From assembly GCF_015291745.1 (NCBI RefSeq), contig NZ_CP030059.1, positions 1,453,501-1,517,500 on the forward strand: a stretch of 64,000 nt of DNA. The letters are read 5' to 3'. This stretch comes from Bradyrhizobium sp. CCBAU 53351. GTDB taxonomy: Bacteria; Pseudomonadota; Alphaproteobacteria; Rhizobiales; Xanthobacteraceae. The notes beneath the pieces were generated by a model. That model saw only the letters and a list, made by a program, of their open reading frames with translations. It was not told where the DNA came from and ran no database searches. Of the stretch, positions 49,716 to 61,385 are shown piece by piece; positions within the stretch are counted from its first letter, which is position 1; every line of letters starts with the position of its first letter. The translations under genes were made by a program, and so were the position numbers.

Positions 49716-50561
49716 ATGGCTGACACCGAGAGCAAGCCGGAGCGCTATGTTCGCCCTCCGAGCGCCGAGTCATCAGGCGACGCGCCGGGCAGGGGGCGAC
49801 TGAAGGGGCGCCGTATCCTCGTCGTCGGCGGCGGCCAGCGCGTGTTCGATGCCGCCACCGATCCGATCGGCAATGGCCGCGCCATGAGCATTCTGTGTGC
49901 ACGCGAGGGTGCGAAGGTCGCGGTCGCCGACCTCAATCGCACTTCGGCGGAAGAGACGGTGAAGCGCATCACCGACGAAGGCGGCGAGGCCTTTGCCATT
50001 GCCGCCGATGTCACGTCGGAAGCGGATGTCGTCCGCATGATCGAAGAAGCTCACCGCGCCATGGGCGGCCTCGACGGTATGGTGCTGAACATCGGCACCT
50101 TCGGCAAGACCGGCCTCGATGCCGTCAGCCCCGAGGAGTGGAACAGGATCTACGACGTCAATGTCCGCGGCCCCATGCTGTGCTGCCGCGCAGGCTTGCC
50201 GAAATTCGATGATGGCGGCGCCATCGTCTTCATCTCCTCGATCGCCGCGCTGAAGGCGGGATCGCAGATGGCGGTGTATGATTCGTCGAAAGCCGCGCTC
50301 GGCGGCCTGATGCGCAACATCGCCCATCTCGGCGCGCGCCGGGGCATCCGGGCCAACCTCGTCTATCCAGGTCTCGTCGACACCCCCAACGGCCGCGAAG
50401 CCGGCGCCGGACGGCCGAATCGCGGCAAGGGCCACGTTCCGTTCGGCCGGCAAGCGACGGCGTGGGAGATCGCCTATGCCGTGCTGTTCTTCCTGTCCGA
50501 CGAAAGCGTCTACGTCACCGCGCAAACGCTCGCGGTGGATAGCGGATTGAGCGGGATGTGA
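49716..50561 (+). CDS. Short-chain dehydrogenase/reductase
   Basis: A 281-residue Rossmann-fold SDR. The cofactor motif is altered to VVGGGQRVFDAATDPIGNG, with an insertion in the glycine-rich loop. The catalytic Ser is in VFISSIAA, and Tyr and Lys are in YDSSKAALGG. The C-terminal AQTLAVDSGLSGM is typical. It starts one base after the preceding stop (TGA-G-ATG) and likely oxidises or reduces the catabolic intermediate handled by the CMD protein. Confidence 0.88.
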   Translation: MADTESKPERYVRPPSAESSGDAPGRGRLKGRRILVVGGGQRVFDAATDPIGNGRAMSILCAREGAKVAVADLNRTSAEETVKRITDEGGEAFAIAADVTSEADVVRMIEEAHRAMGGLDGMVLNIGTFGKTGLDAVSPEEWNRIYDVNVRGPMLCCRAGLPKFDDGGAIVFISSIAALKAGSQMAVYDSSKAALGGLMRNIAHLGARRGIRANLVYPGLVDTPNGREAGAGRPNRGKGHVPFGRQATAWEIAYAVLFFLSDESVYVTAQTLAVDSGLSGM

Positions 50562-50566
50562 GGCCT

Positions 50567-50653
50567 GTAGCCCGGATGGAGCGCAAGCGTAATCCGGGAC
50601 CGCAGCATCATCCCACGAGCTGCCCCGGATTGCGCTGCGCTCCATCCGGGCTA
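50567..50653. repeat. Full palindromic repeat overlapping a gene end
   Basis: The arms at 50567-50598 and 50623-50653 both read GTAGCCCGGATGGAGC (second arm inverted) followed by near-identical bases to AATCCGGG. The loop is about 24 bp. The right arm and loop encode the last residues and the stop of the DoxX gene. Confidence 0.85.
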
Positions 50654-51147
50654 CGAATTCGGCAGAGCAAATGATCGAGCGAGACGTTGCCGGGTCCGTA
50701 CGCCATGAGGGCGAGTGCCATCGCGGCCCAGGTGAGGTGGATCGGCCAGCCGTCGGGCACCGTGAGCTCGACGATGACGGTCATGAACAGAAGTCCAAGC
50801 CCCGCGAATCGTGTGCCGAGCCCGAGCACGAGCAGGATCGGAAACATGATCTCGCCGCAGCCTGACAGGAACGCCATCAGCGTCGGCGCGGGAAAGTGAT
50901 AAGGCCCGCCCGGCAGATGCAGCATGAACTCCTCGCTGAACAGCGTTACGGCGGTGTCGTTGAGCCTGAGGAATCCGCCCCATTTGAGCATGCCGGAACG
51001 CCAGAACGGCACCGCGAGCGCGAGGCGCAGCACGAGCAGGACGAGCGAGGGGGTGGCAAGCGTCTGGATCAGGTGATTGGCCCGGTCGATGAGCAGCCAG
51101 GGCGACGGCAGGCCGCCGCTCGCCATGCGTTGGTCCGTGATCATCAT
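50608..51147 (-). CDS. DoxX family membrane protein of the bufferin operon (BufD-like)
   Basis: A 179-residue protein with four membrane segments and DoxX pattern (VLRLALAVPFWRSGMLKWGGF, GCGEIMFPILLVLGLGTRFAGLGL). DoxX proteins accompany many DUF2282-DUF692-DUF2063 operons, probably as a redox or quinone-linked membrane partner. The start overlaps the DUF2063 stop (ATGA). The C-terminus (RSPDGAQRNPGQLVG) is translated from a palindromic repeat, so the natural stop has probably been replaced. Confidence 0.85.
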   Translation of the reverse strand: MMITDQRMASGGLPSPWLLIDRANHLIQTLATPSLVLLVLRLALAVPFWRSGMLKWGGFLRLNDTAVTLFSEEFMLHLPGGPYHFPAPTLMAFLSGCGEIMFPILLVLGLGTRFAGLGLLFMTVIVELTVPDGWPIHLTWAAMALALMAYGPGNVSLDHLLCRIRSPDGAQRNPGQLVG

Positions 51148-51920
51148 GCGTCTCCAGCAGCAGAGGTGAATGCACCGGCTTCGATCAGGCCGGTGATGTT
51201 CGAGGCGATGTCGAAGTCGGGCGATGCATCCAGTGCCGTCGCGGCAGCTTCGCCGAGCGGTTGGCCGGATGCGAGGCAAACGGCAAAGACGGCGCTGGCG
51301 GGCGAAAGGTGCCGCACCACGACGTCGAATTCGGGCCGCGTGATCAATGCGTCCTCCGGCCTCGACGCATCGATGCGCGCGGTAGGAGTGCTGCCGCGAT
51401 TGGCGGCGAAAATCGTCACCGCGGAGAATTGCGAACGAACGATCCGCATCGCCGGGTGCGGGATGAAGACGGTATCCGCCAGACGCTCCGGGGCAATCGC
51501 CGACAGCCGGGCCGGGGACAGCGGCGCGGCGTCGCGCGCATGATAGGCGTCGAGCCAGGCCCGCTCGATGCGGGCGACGTCGGCGAGCCAGGGCATATCT
51601 TGGGCATGCTCATAGGCGTCGATGAAATCCGGAAAGTCGCGGCCATACTGGAACAGCAGCGGCGAGCTCGGCGGATGGCTGCGCACATGAAAGCGCGCCA
51701 TGGCCCGGAAGAAGTCGGTGCCGGTGATGCGCTGCACCGCCGGATAGATCGCGGCCAGCGCCTCGATCAGGCTGACGGTGACGTTGTTGCGATAGACGTC
51801 GTAGCGCCGGGCGGCGGCCTTGCCGTTTGGTCCGGTCACGATCCCCGGCGTCTTGCGCGCTGGGTCCAGCAGCGCCGGCGCGAACGCAGCGGCGAACGAC
51901 AAGCCGGTCTCAGGCTGCAT
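51144..51920 (-). CDS. bufC: BufC-like DUF2063 protein (MNIO partner)
   Basis: A 258-residue protein with the N-terminal DUF2063 domain (about 5-110: FAAAFAPALLDPARKTPG, RRYDVYRNNVTVSLIEALAAIYPAVQRITG, DFFRAMARFHVRSHPPSSPLL). In this family it delivers the precursor peptide to the DUF692 enzyme. The C-terminal half (about 120-258) is a winged-helix-like or beta domain that I do not name. It overlaps bufB by 11 bp and the DoxX gene by 4 bp. Confidence 0.9.
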   Translation of the reverse strand: MQPETGLSFAAAFAPALLDPARKTPGIVTGPNGKAAARRYDVYRNNVTVSLIEALAAIYPAVQRITGTDFFRAMARFHVRSHPPSSPLLFQYGRDFPDFIDAYEHAQDMPWLADVARIERAWLDAYHARDAAPLSPARLSAIAPERLADTVFIPHPAMRIVRSQFSAVTIFAANRGSTPTARIDASRPEDALITRPEFDVVVRHLSPASAVFAVCLASGQPLGEAAATALDASPDFDIASNITGLIEAGAFTSAAGDA

Positions 51921-52827
51921 GACGCTCTCCTGCCATTGCTGTGGTCTGATGACGATCGAGGATCGCCTGTGCGGCAAGGGCTTCCGCCTGCAGCACCGGC
52001 CAGTCCGGAATCTTGCTGTCCCATTCGATCAGCGTCGGCACCGCGCCGCAGCGTCCGATCACCAGCTCGTAAAGCCTCCAGACGGCGTCCGCGACCGGGC
52101 CGTCATGGCTGTCGATCAACAGCAGACCGCCTTCGTCGTCAGCCTGCTCGGCATGGCCGGCAAGGTGAATTTCCTCGACGCGCGACAGCGGGAAATCCGC
52201 GAGATAGTCGAGCGCGGAAGTGCCGTGATTGGTGGCGGAGACGAATACGTTGTTGACGTCGAGCAGCAGCCCGCAGCCGGTGCGCTCGGCGATGGCGCGA
52301 ATGAACTCGGTCTCGCGCATCGAGGATTCGCGGAAGGCGACGTAGGTCGACGGGTTTTCCAGCAGCAGCGGACGACGGATCGCCTCCTGCACCTGGTCGA
52401 TGTGGTCGCAGACGCAAGCGAGCGTCGCCTCGGTATAGGGCAGCGGCAACAGATCGTTGAAGAAGCTGGCCTCATGTGTCGACCAGGCCAGATGCTCGGA
52501 CACCAGCGCCGGCTGATAACGCGCGACGAGGCCGCGGAAGCGCGCCAGATGCGCCTTGTCGAGTGGCCGCGGCCCGCCGATCGACATGCAGACGCCATGC
52601 AGCGACAGCGGATGGTCGCGGCGGATCGCTTCCAGCGCGCGATGCGGCGGGCCGCCATCGCCCATGTAGTTCTCGGCGTGGACTTCGAAGAAGCCACGCC
52701 GAGGTCCGGCCTCGAGGATATTGGAGAGATGCTCGGGCTTGAAGCTCGTCCCGGCAACGCCGCCGATGGGCGTTGGATAGCGGAGCGGCATGGCTGCTCG
52801 TCGGGCGGGGTTGATCACCGTGCTCAT
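51910..52827 (-). CDS. bufB: BufB-like multinuclear non-heme iron oxidase (DUF692/MNIO)
   Basis: A 305-residue TIM-barrel enzyme of the DUF692 family, which modifies Cys residues of precursor peptides. Likely iron ligands are visible: His50 in FEVHAENYM, His77 in LHGVCMSIGG, VSEHLAWS, LLLDVNNVFV, EIHLAGH, DSHDGPV and the Glu in IEWDSKIP. The order and spacing match the family. It follows the precursor gene after 43 bp, with a GGAG site 11 bases before ATG 52827. Confidence 0.93.
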   Translation of the reverse strand: MSTVINPARRAAMPLRYPTPIGGVAGTSFKPEHLSNILEAGPRRGFFEVHAENYMGDGGPPHRALEAIRRDHPLSLHGVCMSIGGPRPLDKAHLARFRGLVARYQPALVSEHLAWSTHEASFFNDLLPLPYTEATLACVCDHIDQVQEAIRRPLLLENPSTYVAFRESSMRETEFIRAIAERTGCGLLLDVNNVFVSATNHGTSALDYLADFPLSRVEEIHLAGHAEQADDEGGLLLIDSHDGPVADAVWRLYELVIGRCGAVPTLIEWDSKIPDWPVLQAEALAAQAILDRHQTTAMAGERHAA

Positions 52828-52870
52828 CGTGCTGCTCCGTTCATCCTTGCCGGCGAGGTCGCGCCGGCCG

Positions 52871-53176
52871 TTAGACCGGCTTGAGCGAGCCCTTCTTGCC
52901 GCCCGGCAGGTCGATGCTGGTGCAGGTGCCGCCCTGCACGAATTTCCAGGCGTTGCCCTGGAAGTCGACCGTCGAAGTGCCCTGGCAGGTCGTGCCCGGT
53001 CCCGCCGCGCAATCGTTCTGGCCCTTCAGCGCGACGCCGAAGCACTTCTCCTTCTTGGCGGCGACGGCGGCCTCGGCCTCGGCCTTGGTCAGCGGGCCGG
53101 CGGCAGCGAGGGTCGCGAGCGCGGTCGAGACGGCGCCGGCGAGGACGAGCGAGGTGACGACGTGTTTGGCAGACAT
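52871..53176 (-). CDS. bufA: Bufferin precursor (DUF2282, BufA)
   Basis: A 101-residue secreted peptide precursor. The signal peptide (1-26, ending TLAAA-G) is followed by a Lys/Ala helix. The conserved DUF2282 core contains four cysteines at 45, 56, 64 and 85 ([24 protein letters not shown]) and WKFV. By family knowledge the DUF692 enzyme turns Cys residues into thiooxazole-type groups and the mature peptide binds copper in the periplasm. AGGAG precedes ATG 53176, and an ECF-type promoter lies upstream. Confidence 0.92.
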
Positions 53177-53232: not shown

Positions 53233-53258
53233 TTCGCTGCGCGCGCAGCCGGCGTTAC
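53233..53258 (-). promoter_or_regulatory. ECF (SigF-like) promoter of the bufferin operon
   Basis: Minus strand: GTAACG (53258-53253), exactly 16 bases, CGAA (53236-53233). This matches the GTAACC-N16-CGAA type recognised by the metal-responsive sigma factor SigF in Caulobacter, which drives related DUF2282 genes. A 7-bp inverted repeat (53298-53314) lies further upstream. The rest of the 312-bp divergent gap has no other clear motif. Confidence 0.55.
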
Positions 53259-53488
53259 CGCGGGCCGCTCACGAACCCGTGAGACCGATTGGATCGGGCG
53301 CACCGCCGGTGCGCTTGGGCTGGCATTAGCGGGCAATCGTCCGCCCAAAGCCAATGCCTGGGGTCTATCGACACGGTAGCCACCGGGCATTGGCGGCGCC
53401 GCCCCGTTTTCTGCCAGATGTAACGGGCGAGCGCCGGCGGCGTAGAGCAATGTCAGTGGCTCGCGTGGACCGGCAGGCGAAGAGGGCG

Positions 53489-55585
53489 ATGAAGCTTGAT
53501 CCCGAACGACGGCTTCGTGCGATCGCAAGGTTGACGGTCAGCATCCGCCTCGCGGTGTCCGCGCTGGTCCTGGCTGCGATCCTGCTGACGGCCGCGCTCT
53601 CCAGCCTGCTCTGGTGGCGCACGGCGGAGGCGACCAGCCGGCAGCTCGCCTCGACCATCAACGAGCAGATCGTGGCGGCGGTGCGCAAGGAGGTCTCGGC
53701 CATCGTCGACGAGGCGCGCGCCGCGCACACCGCGATCCGCACGCTGTTCCTGCAGAATGTGCTCGACACCCGCGAGGCCGACAAGCGCGAGTTCGTGTTT
53801 CTCTCGCAATTGCAGTCGCAGGCGACGATCTCTTGGGTCGCCTTCGGCTGGCCCGACGGCTCCTTCTTCGCCGCGCACAAGCTTGGCGATCGCCGCCTGG
53901 AGATGATGGAGATCTCGCTGACCGATCATCCCGGCCAGCGCCGCGTCGATGAATACGACGTGGTGCCCGGCGACATCGAGTTCGCCAATCGCCGCTTCGA
54001 GCCGACCGCATTCCATGTCGCCGATCAGGCCTGGTTCAAGGCCGGACTCGACGCGAACGATCCGCAATGGTTCAGGGTGATGGACCATGCCACCGGCGAG
54101 CGGCCCTCGATCGCCTTCGCGGGGCCGATCGACGTCTATCAGGAGCGGCAAGGCGTTCTGGCCGTCATCATCGAATACACCAGGCTTGCGCGTTTTCTCT
54201 CGCAGCTCGAGGTCGGGCGCACGGGGACCGCCTTCATCGTCGATGACAGCGGCGAATTGATCGCGGCGCCGGACAAGGAGGCCGACGAGCTCCATCCGGC
54301 GCGTGGCGACACGACGCTGCTGCCGCTGGCGCGGCTGGCGCTCGACAAGGCGGGGGAGGCCGGCCGCAAGGAGGCCTGGCGAAACCGGCTGACGTCCGGC
54401 GGCGCAGCCTATGAGATTGCACTGACACCGCTGCCGTTTGCCGGCTGGTCGCTCGCGACCGTGATCCCGGAGGCCGAATTTCTCGGGCCGGTCGAGACGA
54501 CGCTGCGGCGACTGATCCTCGGCCTCGCCGTCGGCGCCGTGCTCGCGGCGCTGGCCTCGGCGATGCTGGCGCGGTCCGTCATTGCTGCGCCGCTGTCGCG
54601 CGTCGTCGGCGAGCTCCGCCATGTCGAAGCCTTCGCGCTGGAGCAGGTCCGCCGCCACCCCTCGCGGCTCAAGGAGATCGCGAGCCTGTCCGGCGCGATC
54701 GCCGAGATGGCGTCCGGCTTGTCCGCATTCCGCAAGTTTATTCCGGCCGATCTGGTGCGCGATCTGCTGCGCCAGGGCGTCGAGGCGAGGCCCGGCGGCA
54801 GCGTCCAGGAGCTCAGCGTGATGTTCATCGACATTGCCGGCTTCACCGGGCTGTCCGAGCGGTTGGGCGACCGCGTGGTGCCGCTGCTGTCGCGCTATCT
54901 CGACGTCACCTCGGAGATCATCGTTGCCAATGGCGGCACCATCGACAAGTTCATCGGCGACGCCGTGATGGCGTTCTGGGGCGCGCCGCAGCCGCAGGAC
55001 GATCACGCCGCGCGCTGCTGCCGCGCGGCGCTCGCCTGCCGCAGGGCGATGGAGGAGTCCGGCCTCGCCGACGATCTCGGCCAGCCGCTCCAGATCCGCA
55101 TCGGCATCAATTCGGGCCGCATGCTGGTCGGCAATATCGGCTCGGAGCTGCGGCTGAACTACACCGTGATCGGCGATGCCGTGAACGTCGCAAGCCGGCT
55201 CGAAGGCGCCAACAAATCCTACGGCACGCAGATCCTGATCGGCGAGACGACCGAACGTCTGGCGCGCGGCGCCGTCATCACGCGCGAGGTCGACAGCATC
55301 GCGGTCTACGGACGGGAGGAGGGACTCTCCGTCCACGAACTGATCGGGATCGCGAACGAGGGCACCATCGACGGCGAGACAATCGGCTGGATCGCGGATT
55401 ACGAGCGTGGCCTTGAAGCCTATCGCACGCGGCACTTTGCCGAGGCGCTCGCAGATTTCGAGGCCGTGTTGAAGCGGCGCGGCCACGATCGCCCCGCCGA
55501 GCTGATGCGCGAGCGCTGCCGGCAGCTCATGTCGGCTGCGCCGGACGCCGCCTGGCGGGCGGTGGCGACACTGACGTCGAAATAG
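53489..55585 (+). CDS. Membrane class III adenylate/guanylate cyclase with Cache-type sensor
   Basis: A 698-residue protein. There is a membrane helix at about 18-42, a periplasmic dCache-like sensor (about 50-330), a second helix (about 335-360), a HAMP-like linker, and a C-terminal catalytic domain (about 435-625). The metal Asp residues are in MFIDIAGFTGLSERLG and IDKFIGDAVMAFWG, the latter with a Lys fitting ATP specificity. GDAVNVASRLEG carries the transition-state Asn and Arg. The start at ATG 53489 follows AAGAGGG; ATG 53450 is possible. Confidence 0.88.
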   Translation: MKLDPERRLRAIARLTVSIRLAVSALVLAAILLTAALSSLLWWRTAEATSRQLASTINEQIVAAVRKEVSAIVDEARAAHTAIRTLFLQNVLDTREADKREFVFLSQLQSQATISWVAFGWPDGSFFAAHKLGDRRLEMMEISLTDHPGQRRVDEYDVVPGDIEFANRRFEPTAFHVADQAWFKAGLDANDPQWFRVMDHATGERPSIAFAGPIDVYQERQGVLAVIIEYTRLARFLSQLEVGRTGTAFIVDDSGELIAAPDKEADELHPARGDTTLLPLARLALDKAGEAGRKEAWRNRLTSGGAAYEIALTPLPFAGWSLATVIPEAEFLGPVETTLRRLILGLAVGAVLAALASAMLARSVIAAPLSRVVGELRHVEAFALEQVRRHPSRLKEIASLSGAIAEMASGLSAFRKFIPADLVRDLLRQGVEARPGGSVQELSVMFIDIAGFTGLSERLGDRVVPLLSRYLDVTSEIIVANGGTIDKFIGDAVMAFWGAPQPQDDHAARCCRAALACRRAMEESGLADDLGQPLQIRIGINSGRMLVGNIGSELRLNYTVIGDAVNVASRLEGANKSYGTQILIGETTERLARGAVITREVDSIAVYGREEGLSVHELIGIANEGTIDGETIGWIADYERGLEAYRTRHFAEALADFEAVLKRRGHDRPAELMRERCRQLMSAAPDAAWRAVATLTSK

Positions 55586-55698: not shown

Positions 55699-56283
55699 AT
55701 GAAGATCACGTTGCTGAGACCGAAAGACTACACCCGCTCGCCCTGGAAGAACGGCGGCGGCATCTTCACCGACATTGCGGGCGCCTGGCGCGCTGACGCG
55801 GTGGCGAAGGATTGGAGCAGCCTGCTCTGGCGCCTTGCCTCCACGCCGATCGTGGCGCCCGGCCCGTTCTCCCATATGCCCGGCATCGACCGGCTCCAGA
55901 TGGTCGTCAACGGGCGTGGGCTGGTGCTGAAGTCACCCACGCAGGAGTTCGACGAGCGTGAACCTTTTACGACGGTGCGCTTCACCGGAGAGATGGAGAT
56001 TGTGACCGCGCTCGAAGAGGGACCGGTCGAGGTCGTGAACCTGATGGCCCGGCGCGGCGCGGCGGAGATCGAGCTCGTGGCGCTTCGCGAGCCGGGCACG
56101 CGGCAGCTTGTCGCCGGCACACATTTGGTTTACGCAGCGCGCGGCGATTGCCGCGTCCGCATCGATGACGAGGAATTCTCGCTTTCGCACGAGGACACGC
56201 TGAAAGTGGAGCTCACTGCGGCGTCGAAGCTCGCGCTTGTGTCAGGGCTGGCGGTGCTGGGATCGATTCGGCTCATCGGCTAG
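55699..56283 (+). CDS. HutD family protein
   Basis: A 194-residue double-cupin-like protein of the HutD family (SPWKNGGGIFTDIAG, LWRLASTPIVAPGPFSHMPGIDR, VYAARGDCRVRIDDEEFSL). HutD accompanies histidine utilisation genes and may limit urocanate or formimino-glutamate toxicity, but no hut gene is nearby. It stands alone between two cyclase genes. Confidence 0.88.
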   Translation: MKITLLRPKDYTRSPWKNGGGIFTDIAGAWRADAVAKDWSSLLWRLASTPIVAPGPFSHMPGIDRLQMVVNGRGLVLKSPTQEFDEREPFTTVRFTGEMEIVTALEEGPVEVVNLMARRGAAEIELVALREPGTRQLVAGTHLVYAARGDCRVRIDDEEFSLSHEDTLKVELTAASKLALVSGLAVLGSIRLIG

Positions 56284-56396: not shown

Positions 56397-57605
56397 ATGA
56401 ACGGGCAGGATATGACCGCGCCAGACCACAATCTCCCCGCCACATTGTCCGACGGCGTCGTTGATTGGCTGACCAATGGCACGCGCGACGAGCGCTTCAT
56501 CGACAACATTTTTGCCGAGATGTGCATCCGTCTCCAGCAGGCCGGCATTCCGCTCGCGCGGTCGACGCTCCATGTCCGCATCCAGCACCCGCAATGGCTG
56601 GGGGCCCGCATCATGTGGTCCGACGGCAAGCGCGAGGCCGAGATTTCGCGGGTCGACTTCGATGTGCAGCAGCGCTCCGAATATATCGGCAGCGCCGCCC
56701 ACGAGATATTCGAGGGGGCGGCCGAAGTGCGCGAGAATCTCGAACGTGACCCGTCGCTCGGCCGCAAGCATGCGCTCTATGACGAGATGCGCGCGAAAGG
56801 CCTGACCGACTATGTGGCCTGGCCGCTGCATCACACGCTCGGCAAGCGGCATCTCGTCACCTTCGCGACCGACCGGCCCGGCGGTTTCGACGATGCGCAT
56901 GTCGCCGCCCTCAAGAACGTGTTGCCGGTGCTGGCGCTGGTCAGCGAGATCCGCGTCAAGAATCGCCTGGCGCGGACGCTGCTCGAGACCTATGTCGGCT
57001 CCCATGCCGGCGAGCTCATCCTGGCCGGGGCGACCCGGCGCGGCACGGGCACGACGGTGCGCGCCGCGATCATGATCTGCGACCTCAGGGATTTCACCAA
57101 GATTTCCGACAACTGGCCGCGCGACGACGTCATCGATCTGCTCAACGACTATTTCGACGCGATGTCGGAGCCGATCGCACGGCACGGCGGCGAGATCCTG
57201 AAATTCATCGGCGACGGCCTGCTCGCCATCTTCCCGCTGAGCCAGCCCAATGCCTGCGCCAACCTGCTGCATGCCGTGACCGAGGCCCGGCAGGCCATGG
57301 CCGCCCTGAACGAGCGAAACAAGATGACCAGCCGCGCGCCGCTGAACTACGGCATCGGCGTCCATGTCGGCGACGTCATGTACGGCAATATCGGATCGAG
57401 CAGCCGGCTCGACTTCACCGTGATCGGCCCGGCCGTCAACATGGCCTCCCGGCTCGAAGCCCTCACCAAGAAGTTGGGACGAACGGTGCTGCTGTCACGC
57501 GACTTTGCGGAGCTGGTGCAGCCGAAGTTCGAGCTGGAGCACGTCGGTCAGCATGAGGTGCGCGGCTTCAGCGATCCAATCGAGCTGTTTGCCTATCACG
57601 GCTGA
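56397..57605 (+). CDS. Cytosolic class III adenylate/guanylate cyclase
   Basis: A 402-residue protein without membrane segments. The N-terminal region (about 20-205) resembles a GAF-like sensor. The catalytic domain (about 215-400) has metal Asp residues in MICDLRDFTKIS and ILKFIGDGLLAIF, and the Asn-Arg pair in GPAVNMASRLEALTKKLG. It makes cAMP (or possibly cGMP) in response to an unknown signal. ATG 56397 is accepted; an internal ATG 15 bases later is an alternative. Confidence 0.88.
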   Translation: MNGQDMTAPDHNLPATLSDGVVDWLTNGTRDERFIDNIFAEMCIRLQQAGIPLARSTLHVRIQHPQWLGARIMWSDGKREAEISRVDFDVQQRSEYIGSAAHEIFEGAAEVRENLERDPSLGRKHALYDEMRAKGLTDYVAWPLHHTLGKRHLVTFATDRPGGFDDAHVAALKNVLPVLALVSEIRVKNRLARTLLETYVGSHAGELILAGATRRGTGTTVRAAIMICDLRDFTKISDNWPRDDVIDLLNDYFDAMSEPIARHGGEILKFIGDGLLAIFPLSQPNACANLLHAVTEARQAMAALNERNKMTSRAPLNYGIGVHVGDVMYGNIGSSSRLDFTVIGPAVNMASRLEALTKKLGRTVLLSRDFAELVQPKFELEHVGQHEVRGFSDPIELFAYHG

Positions 57606-60590: not shown

Positions 60591-61385
60591 ATGCCCAAAT
60601 TCCTACGCATCGGAGTCCTTCAGTCGAACGTGTCGGGATACACGTCGAAGGCGTGGTGCGTCCGGCGCGCTGGCTCGGTGGTCTTCCTGAAGTGGGGAGC
60701 CGTCGAGGTCCATGGCGCCGGCGACGGGCGAAGGGTCTATTGGACGCGCCTGCCGCAGGAGAAGACGGTTCGCTGCGGCACGGTGCAGCGCGCCCAGGAC
60801 TATGCCAAGGCCGCGATCGCCCGGCGCCGCAGTCATCGCTACGAACCGCTGGCCGGACCGATCGCGCCTCGGCGCCGATCAGCCGAGCGCAGCGCCGAGC
60901 TCAAGCAGGCGCTCGCCACCATCCTGATCGTCGATATCGTCCGCTCCACCGAAAAGGCCGCAAAGCTCGGCGATGCGCGCTGGACGAAAATCATGGGCCA
61001 CTATTACGCGGCGGTCCGCAAGGAGTTGAAGAGCACGCGCGGCAAGGAAGTGGTGACGACCGGTGACGGCGTGCTGGCGACATTCAAGGCGCCGGCATCC
61101 GGCATCCGTTGCGCGACCGCGATCCAGAAGGCCGTGCGCACGCTGGGGCTCGACATCAGGGTCGGGCTGCATGCGGGCGAGTATAGCATGAGCGGGGGCG
61201 AGATGGTCGGTCTCGCGTTTCACATCGGCACGCGCGTCGCCGCCAAGGCGCGCGCCGGCGAGGTCCTGGTCTCGAGCGCGGTCAAGGACCTGATGGCGCG
61301 ATCCGAGATCCGCTTCAGGGACCACGGCGTGCACCAGCTCAAGGGCGTTCCGGCGCGGTGGCGGCTGTACCGGGTCGAGGATTGA
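60591..61385 (+). CDS. WGR-like domain fused to a class III cyclase domain
   Basis: A 264-residue cytosolic protein. The first 85 residues follow the WGR pattern (FLRIGVLQ, TSKAWCVRRAGSVVFLKWGAV, KTVRCGTVQRAQDYAKAAIA, Arg/His end). The cyclase homology domain starts at about residue 108 with metal Asp in ILIVDIVRSTEKAAKLGD and VVTTGDGVLATF. The transition-state Asn is replaced in FHIGTRVAAKA, so activity may be low or different. ATG 60591 is chosen because earlier codons are not domain-like. Confidence 0.78.
   Translation: MPKFLRIGVLQSNVSGYTSKAWCVRRAGSVVFLKWGAVEVHGAGDGRRVYWTRLPQEKTVRCGTVQRAQDYAKAAIARRRSHRYEPLAGPIAPRRRSAERSAELKQALATILIVDIVRSTEKAAKLGDARWTKIMGHYYAAVRKELKSTRGKEVVTTGDGVLATFKAPASGIRCATAIQKAVRTLGLDIRVGLHAGEYSMSGGEMVGLAFHIGTRVAAKARAGEVLVSSAVKDLMARSEIRFRDHGVHQLKGVPARWRLYRVED

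Follow-up and report, generated by a model that had tools for sequence, protein, structure and literature searches.

A Buf1 bufferin operon divergent to, and probably coupled with, a dCache adenylate cyclase in Bradyrhizobium

An ordinary Buf1 operon of four genes

The window analyzed here, a 64-kb stretch of Bradyrhizobium DNA to whose positions all coordinates refer, holds four tightly packed genes on the minus strand. The gene bufA (52871-53176) encodes a 101-aa Buf1 (DUF2282) precursor (PF10048, 78.8 bits, cut-off 22.4) and is followed by bufB (51910-52827) for a 305-aa MNIO enzyme (PF05114, 352.7 bits, cut-off 25), bufC (51144-51920) for a 258-aa DUF2063 partner protein (PF09836, 91.8 bits, cut-off 27.2) and doxX, or bufD (50608-51147), for a DoxX-family membrane protein (PF07681, 58 bits, cut-off 23.6, scored from 51144). 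The bufB and bufC reading frames overlap by 11 bases and an ATGA is common to the bufC stop and the doxX start, while the C-terminal ∼15 residues of DoxX appear, by eye, to be encoded by a palindromic repeat.

BufB also exceeds the cut-off of the NCBIfam BufB equivalog model NF050167 (380 versus 310). Each of the nine TglH iron ligands (PMC10880893) has a counterpart in BufB: E157, D190, N193, H221, D239, H241, and E268 in the printed alignment and H77 and H112 by motif. BufA carries cysteines at positions 45, 56, 64, and 85, and its N-terminus resembles a signal peptide by eye, with K4, a hydrophobic stretch, and AAAG. An initial annotation had proposed a bufferin-type operon with these cysteines, intact iron-ligand motifs in the DUF692 enzyme, and a DoxX gene within the unit, and the four family matches above curated cut-offs and the ligand counterparts support it. 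The four genes are almost certainly a Buf1 bufferin operon. A Buf2-type identity of the precursor is unsupported, with a score of 24.1 on the NCBIfam BufA2 model (cut-off 60); BufC and DoxX likewise fall below the cut-offs of the HvfC (44.7 versus 142) and HvfX (59.3 versus 80) models. In Buf1 clusters the DUF2063 partner carries an RRE-type C-terminal domain. MNIO and DUF2282 each match only once in the whole genome, which rules out a second bufferin system.

The same annotation had ranked the four genes as the strongest candidate for an unusual system, a description that does not hold, since bufferin clusters have these genes as their core (PMC12452194) and the cluster is of the known Buf1 type. 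The unusual part is a linked adenylate cyclase, which that annotation lacked. The unit is also unlikely to stop at bufA, as the divergent cyclase would belong to it. As in the Caulobacter Buf1 cluster CC3254-CC3257, genes for DUF2282, DUF692, DUF2063, and DoxX lie in one transcription unit with a SigF-type promoter-like element (promoter GTAACC-N16-CGAA in Caulobacter; PMC3511200). Whereas the Caulobacter cluster adjoins sigF-nrsF, here no sigF or nrsF adjoins, and a divergent dCache adenylate cyclase with a same-type element is found instead.

A divergent dCache adenylate cyclase

The gene at 53489-55585 on the plus strand encodes a 698-aa dCache-class III adenylate cyclase, identified from matches to PF02743 (66.7 against a cut-off of 45, covering the dCache domain) and PF00211, alignments, a structure model, and a fold search. 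Class III adenylate cyclases use two metal-binding Asp residues, a substrate-binding Lys and Thr, and an Asn/Arg pair. The corresponding catalytic residues, D448, K487, D491, T559, N566, and R570, are invariant in 19/19 aligned sequences. Among solved structures, PDB 3r5g, the class III adenylate cyclase CyaB of Pseudomonas aeruginosa, matches the catalytic domain best, with the Lys and Thr substrate residues included; the likeness covers this domain, and the sensor of the enzyme in the window is a periplasmic dCache domain. The model (mean pLDDT 82.2) places a double PAS-like domain after a long helix, and Foldseek finds that this modeled dCache domain resembles ligand-binding domains of chemoreceptors for small molecules, amino acids among them. 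The protein is predicted to be a membrane enzyme that makes cAMP under the control of a periplasmic sensor. The dCache domain does not contain any cysteine, and a simple Cys copper site is therefore unlikely.

Searches of the open-access literature gave no paper that connects MNIO or bufferin clusters with an adenylate cyclase. In the methods of PMC12452194, bufferin cluster mining admitted unrelated genes only within 10 bp.

The cyclase co-occurs with MNIO enzymes

Among 265 genomes of the genus, 169 have both the cyclase and an MNIO enzyme, 23 have an MNIO enzyme without the cyclase, and 73 have neither. Every cyclase genome therefore has an MNIO enzyme (169/169) and none of the MNIO-free genomes has the cyclase (0/73), counts that ignore the kinship of these related genomes. 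Four cyclase candidates were scored per genome, and rescoring 35 of the same-genus genomes with 19 candidates each gave identical positives.

Distances were taken from 150 listed cyclase copies, the matching genomes numbering 169. Among the listed copies, 100 of the 101 with at least 60% identity sit within 3 kb of a DUF2282 gene, and 48 of the 49 with 54-57% identity sit no more than 8 kb from an MNIO gene of a second type, the Cys-Lys type, which was called by score (best 72 MNIO matches listed, at least 371 bits). In the exceptions, the cyclase match starts at base 75 of its contig (G146) or the MNIO enzyme is listed on a different contig from the cyclase (G035). The cyclase occurs in four arrangements, divergent or co-directional with either a Buf1 or a Cys-Lys operon. 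Like the Cys-Lys group of captophorins (PMC12668002), the window operon combines an MNIO enzyme with a DUF2063 partner, but it is of the DUF2282 and not the Cys-Lys type; it is in other Bradyrhizobium that an operon placed in this group, by the precursors of L086 and L198, adjoins the same cyclase family. These two loci are the only ones in which the Cys-Lys precursor itself, with its NACKGQ-like units, was seen. The Cys-Lys operon of another locus, L085, includes DsbD-like and thioredoxin-like genes. Among the matches listed, the genus has 145 DUF2282 loci, at most 45 of which are without an adjoining cyclase; this finding together with the 23 MNIO genomes without the cyclase indicates that bufferins do not need it.

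Outside the genus, where three candidates per genome were scored, MNIO enzymes are found in 8/8 cyclase genomes versus 101/269 overall (2 of these 101 matches fall under the Pfam cut-off). The cyclase is present in 6/6 genomes with the second MNIO type, as judged by score, versus 2/263 others. It thus tracks the second MNIO type even where the two are unlinked: adjacency is found in only 2/8 cyclase genomes, and the cyclase copies of Ruegeria-type genomes (48-49%) have no MNIO gene within the flanks read.

We read 21 cyclase-linked loci that were picked for having both cyclase and buf genes, 15 of which had been retrieved through the cyclase only, and the complete set of four buf genes was present in 21/21. 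Flanking SDR, CMD, and TetR genes were rejected as members of the unit, being kept in 4, 8, and 6 of the 21 loci, respectively.

Matched promoter-like elements in the intergenic region

Two SigF/EcfF-type promoter-like elements lie between bufA and the cyclase, GTAAC-N17-CGAA facing bufA (53233-53258, minus strand) and GTAAC-N16-CGTA facing the cyclase (53420-53444, plus strand). We compared 30 distinct intergenic regions, derived from 51 usable loci that are all divergent and were picked for both genes. Such elements are present in 29/30 on the bufA side and 29/30 on the cyclase side, with chance expectations of 0.02 and 0.05 per 30 in Markov shuffles that ignore the kinship of the genomes. 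Judged from sequence, the pattern GTAAC-N16/17-CG(A/T)A upstream of both genes would fit a SigF/EcfF (ECF16) regulon. It resembles the EcfF motif of Bradyrhizobium japonicum, GTAAC(g,a)-N14-15-(c,t)CG(t,a) (PMC3420878). In a further likeness to the EcfF-OsrA regulon, the genome has an NrsF/DUF1109 match of its own. NrsF is present in 262/265 genus genomes. Table 3 of PMC3420878 has no gene named as an MNIO enzyme or a cyclase, and several of its genes are hypothetical. In the cyclase-linked Buf1 loci read, no sigma factor or NrsF gene matched beside the buf genes; sigma/NrsF matches were found near the cyclase-free loci L067 to L070 (sigma only in L067).

Just upstream of the bufA-facing element, the palindrome TCACG-N4-CGTGA (53269-53282) is a candidate regulator site. 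Its core, TCAC-N6-GTGA, is kept in 30/30 distinct intergenic regions, and we assign it to the buf promoter because it also precedes bufA in three loci without the cyclase (L060, L065, and L067). No CRP-type site was recognized by eye in the intergenic region. The TCAC...GTGA order of the palindrome differs from the half-site order of CRP and so lends no support to direct cAMP-CRP control of buf. An inverted repeat, CCAATGCC...GGCATTGG (53351-53393), is kept in 26/30 regions, and a further palindrome, GCGCAC-N5-GTGCGC (53298-53314 in the window copy), appears conserved by eye.

The co-directional Buf1 loci differ in these features. L083 and L096 have both the promoter-like element and the palindrome upstream of bufA, L062 has a TCAC-N6-GTGA match alone, and L082 has neither; upstream of the cyclase the element is absent in all four. 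The strict GTAAC pattern is also missing upstream of the cyclase from most Cys-Lys-clade loci. By eye, Cys-Lys-clade loci appear to have a GAAAC/GTAAC-N16/17-CGTA element on both sides.

Proposed coupling and alternative explanations

We consider it very probable that the cyclase and the buf operon are functionally coupled. The fuller explanation, a Buf1 operon both divergent to and coupled with a dCache adenylate cyclase, is on the whole likely. Weighing against it are the DUF2282 loci and MNIO genomes without the cyclase, the kinship of the genus genomes, the scarce adjacency outside the genus, the cysteine-free dCache domain, and the non-CRP order of the palindrome. For the modification and export of the peptide, the sigma factor, the metal, the cyclase ligand, and the role of cAMP, we infer the following sequence. 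Metal or oxidant stress would free a SigF/EcfF-type ECF sigma factor from its NrsF/OsrA anti-sigma factor, and the freed sigma factor would read both the bufA and the cyclase promoters. BufB and BufC would then convert the central BufA cysteines 56 and 64 to thiooxazoles, with cysteines 45 and 85 pairing as a disulfide, and the peptide would be exported by Sec and bind copper or a comparable metal. Produced under the same stress, the cyclase would sense a signal in the periplasm, which might be the peptide, the metal state of the peptide, or a by-product of stress, and would set cytoplasmic cAMP, thereby tuning the response.

That the cyclase senses the BufA peptide or its metal state is a tentative proposal. 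Equally speculative is a broader role as a dedicated signaling arm of MNIO-made metallophores, in which the dCache domain might read the modified peptide or its metal load and report it as cAMP; such an arm would serve MNIO operons of two types that differ in chemistry, and it may partly replace a local SigF/NrsF pair. In the published text consulted, we met no sensor of the state of a thiooxazole metallophore, and a cyclase restricted in the genus to MNIO genomes is a concrete and genetically tractable candidate. If the coupling is true, copper or oxidant stress would be tied to cAMP in rhizobia, and cluster mining within 10 bp would be shown to miss divergent partners.

That the peptide is modified at Cys, exported, and buffers copper, as the initial annotation proposed, is plausible by homology to Caulobacter Buf1. 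The locus could also serve chiefly against oxidative or thiol stress as part of the EcfF regulon, its peptide guarding against oxidants or other metals with copper secondary, which we regard as somewhat unlikely. The EcfF-like elements speak for it, as EcfF/OsrA of B. japonicum responds to H2O2 and singlet oxygen (PMC3420878), as do the response of Caulobacter SigF genes, including that for DUF2282, to chromate and cadmium (PMC3511200) and the redox-type genes of the L085 operon. Against it, bufferins improve growth during copper stress (PMC12452194), captophorins bind copper (PMC12668002), and the oxidants tested in Caulobacter induced two SigF-controlled genes no more than twofold (PMC3511200). 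Given the range of signals acting on promoters of this SigF/EcfF type, the inducer of buf need not be copper.

It is unlikely that the cyclase belongs to a general cAMP stress response that shares the sigma factor and neither reads nor tunes the bufferin. A shared promoter type would suffice for such co-regulation, and the chemoreceptor-like dCache model would suit a small-molecule ligand, but this explanation predicts the cyclase in MNIO-free genomes, given how widespread NrsF is, and none of the 73 has it.

It is improbable that the cyclase is a neighbor kept by inherited gene order and functionally untied to an ordinary Buf1 cluster. In favor of this explanation, all MNIO-linked cyclases in the tree except that of L113 fall in one well-supported clade (49 rows), so that inheritance could account for most of the linkage; with 27 cyclase-domain matches in the genome, a cyclase neighbor is not a rare thing; and a second cyclase (56397-57605) lies 0.8 kb downstream of the first. 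Against it, the cyclase is missing from the MNIO-free genomes of the genus, is kept across two operon types and several orientations, co-occurs with MNIO enzymes where unlinked, and shares the type of its promoter-like element with bufA, and the other neighbors are less conserved. The second cyclase, a possible further part of the unit, has a close copy in 14/21 loci, and 5 of these 14 copies lie 3-6 kb or more from the first cyclase or are differently placed (L101).

The buf operon and the divergent cyclase

The four minus-strand genes lie where the initial annotation placed them, and their products (DUF2282 precursor, MNIO enzyme, DUF2063 partner and DoxX) each score above the Pfam cut-off. 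With NCBIfam models, the MNIO is BufB above cut-off, while BufA2, HvfC and HvfX match the buf proteins below theirs. As claimed, BufA carries its four cysteines at positions 45, 56, 64 and 85, and the iron ligands of BufB are intact, with counterparts of all nine named for TglH in the accessible part of PMC10880893. In Buf1 bufferins the modification falls on the central cysteines and a disulphide joins the outer two, according to the available text of PMC12452194. The source genome has a single MNIO match and a single DUF2282 match.

As an operon bufABC-doxX is ordinary: the portion of PMC12452194 available describes the same set (precursor, MNIO, DUF2063 and DoxX genes) as the core of bufferin clusters and collects thousands of Buf1 and Buf2 bufferins, and DUF2282 is present in 125 of the 265 genomes of our genus sample. 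The observation was correct and the operon is of a known kind; the probable signalling partner beside it, not found reported in the literature searched, can be tested.

That partner, overlooked initially, is the divergent gene at 53489-55585 (+), whose product has a dCache domain and a class III cyclase domain as well as a long helix (structure model with a mean pLDDT of 82.2 and pTM of 0.48). Asp448, Lys487, Asp491, Thr559, Asn566 and Arg570 are invariant across this protein and 18 relatives with identities of 37 to 75%, and the best solved match is CyaB; the product is therefore probably an adenylate cyclase. The dCache domain contains no cysteine; in a fold search its model came out similar to domains of chemoreceptors for amino acids and other small molecules, and candidate inputs are the peptide, a peptide-metal state or a stress metabolite. 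The source genome has 27 cyclase-domain matches, compared to one MNIO.

Linkage inside Bradyrhizobium

Calling the cyclase present at E values up to 1e-80, we found it in 169 of 265 genus genomes and MNIO in 192, with all 169 cyclase genomes among the MNIO genomes; 23 had MNIO only and 73 neither (Fisher 2.8e-45, kinship ignored). Among the 150 cyclase matches listed, 101 reach at least 60% identity, of which 100 sit less than 3 kb from DUF2282, in most cases ∼435 bases away when measured between matches. None of the other 49 (54-57% identity) is near DUF2282, but 48 of them have another MNIO at a distance of 0.75 to 7.8 kb. The two matches that break the pattern belong to G146, where the match starts at base 75 of the contig, and G035, where the MNIO is listed on another contig. 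Conversely, at least 100 of 145 DUF2282 loci in the genus have the cyclase within 3 kb and at most 45 do not.

By manual tally, and with some flanks short, 33 of 80 named loci fetched with this cyclase have MNIO in the flanks: 32/36 at 53% identity or more and 1/44 below, the latter being L113 (44%), which carries bufABC. All four buf genes are present at 21/21 cyclase-linked loci, of which 15 were fetched by cyclase alone; the remaining six, fetched by DUF2282, were chosen for also having the cyclase and so do not test the link. Other neighbours at these loci are CMD (8/21), TetR (6/21) and SDR (4/21) genes.

In a tree of 66 cyclases, with several long branches of unsure placement, one clade of 49 rows (100/98) takes in every MNIO-linked row except L113. 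Separate groups are formed by the Cys-Lys loci, by the co-directional Buf1 loci and by the divergent Buf1 loci, the last being a single clade of 19 rows.

The second partner operon, which we take for a captophorin operon of the Cys-Lys type, combines DUF2063 and DoxX with an MNIO ∼40% identical to BufB and with a precursor, seen in L086 and L198, that carries ACKGQ-like units. The cyclase is also present in 70 of the 72 listed genus genomes with this MNIO type, as assigned by score. One such locus from another Bradyrhizobium (L085, 4421-7875, minus strand) has DsbD-like, DoxX and DsbH/thioredoxin-like genes, hinting that periplasmic thiol reduction may be tied to Cys-Lys-type peptides.

Co-occurrence outside the genus

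The family sample has 269 further genomes outside the genus, 8 with the cyclase and 101 with MNIO (two below cut-off), and all 8 cyclase genomes have MNIO (p 3.3e-4, not corrected for kinship). Judged by score, 6 of these 269 have the second MNIO type; the cyclase is present in 6/6 of them versus 2/263 of the others. Only G317 and G459 have the two genes adjacent (2/8); they are widely separated on a single contig in G380, and sit on different contigs, some of which are small, in G304, G346, G322, G544 and G556. Co-occurrence thus seems to outlast linkage, which counts against hitch-hiking. The order-level genome G048 has both genes, on different contigs.

MNIO is absent from the examined flanks of the Ruegeria-type cyclases (48-49%) and of the one from Mesorhizobium (50%), which counts against a universal cyclase-MNIO rule. 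Of the seven genomes of L100, L102, L103, L104, L107, L109 and L111, six have MNIO elsewhere and one has none. In L100 (5883-10070, Mesorhizobium tianshanense) an ECF sigma/NrsF pair lies next to the 50% identical cyclase; MNIO was not found within 8 kb of the cyclase, and three MNIO matches are located in other parts of the genome.

Promoter-like elements and sigma factors

We aligned 30 distinct bufA-cyclase intergenic regions, which are related to each other. The element GTAAC-N16-18-CG(A/T)A faces bufA in 29/30 and the cyclase in 29/30 (0.02 and 0.05 in Markov-shuffled sets); TCAC-N6-GTGA occurs in 30/30 (0.12) and CCAATGC...GCATTGG in 26/30 (0.005). The GTAAC element resembles the SigF site of Caulobacter (GTAACC-N16-CGAA), found there upstream of DUF2282 operons, and the EcfF site of B. 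japonicum (accessible parts of PMC3511200 and PMC3420878, respectively). No TGTGA-type CRP site was recognised by eye. The strict GTAAC element is mostly absent upstream of the cyclase in the Cys-Lys clade and at co-directional Buf1 loci; GAAAC...CGTA elements resembling it were seen, by eye only, in the Cys-Lys clade. Because of the co-occurrence and of promoter-like elements common to both, a functional tie between the cyclase and the bufferin operon is likely.

NrsF matches occur in 262/265 genus genomes, the source genome included. The cyclase-free Buf1 loci L067-L070 all have an ECF sigma nearby, three with NrsF, whereas neither was found at the cyclase-linked Buf1 loci examined. This is not a strict swap, since sigma, NrsF and cyclase occur together in L204 and L205, which are basal in the Cys-Lys group, the cyclase of L100 adjoins the pair with no MNIO nearby, L065 and L066 showed neither cyclase nor sigma, and L060 has only a distant sigma match.

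We found no report linking an adenylate cyclase to MNIO or bufferin clusters in the open-access literature searched, and in the main text of PMC12452194, as far as available, "cyclase" appears once, within a reference.

Other features of the loci

Downstream of the dCache cyclase are a small gene, HutD-like by eye (55699-56283, +), and a second class III cyclase (56397-57605, +), with close copies of both at 14 of the 21 related loci, those in L071, L072, L074 and L078 being ∼3-6 kb further off; a third, weak cyclase-domain match lies at 60915-61358 (+). G259 and G016 have four DUF2282 matches each, two in G259 only 2.8 kb apart, and the extra precursors may have other roles. The Buf1 locus G009:C1:2933033-2933826 (in L031 and L068) has an MNIO gene that matches as two pieces in different frames and so seems to be broken in the record. 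Palindromic repeat copies recognised by eye (50550-50660, of the kind CCCGGATGGAGCGCAGCGCAATCCGGG) lie at the doxX 3' end, and the DoxX C-terminus is translated from repeat sequence.
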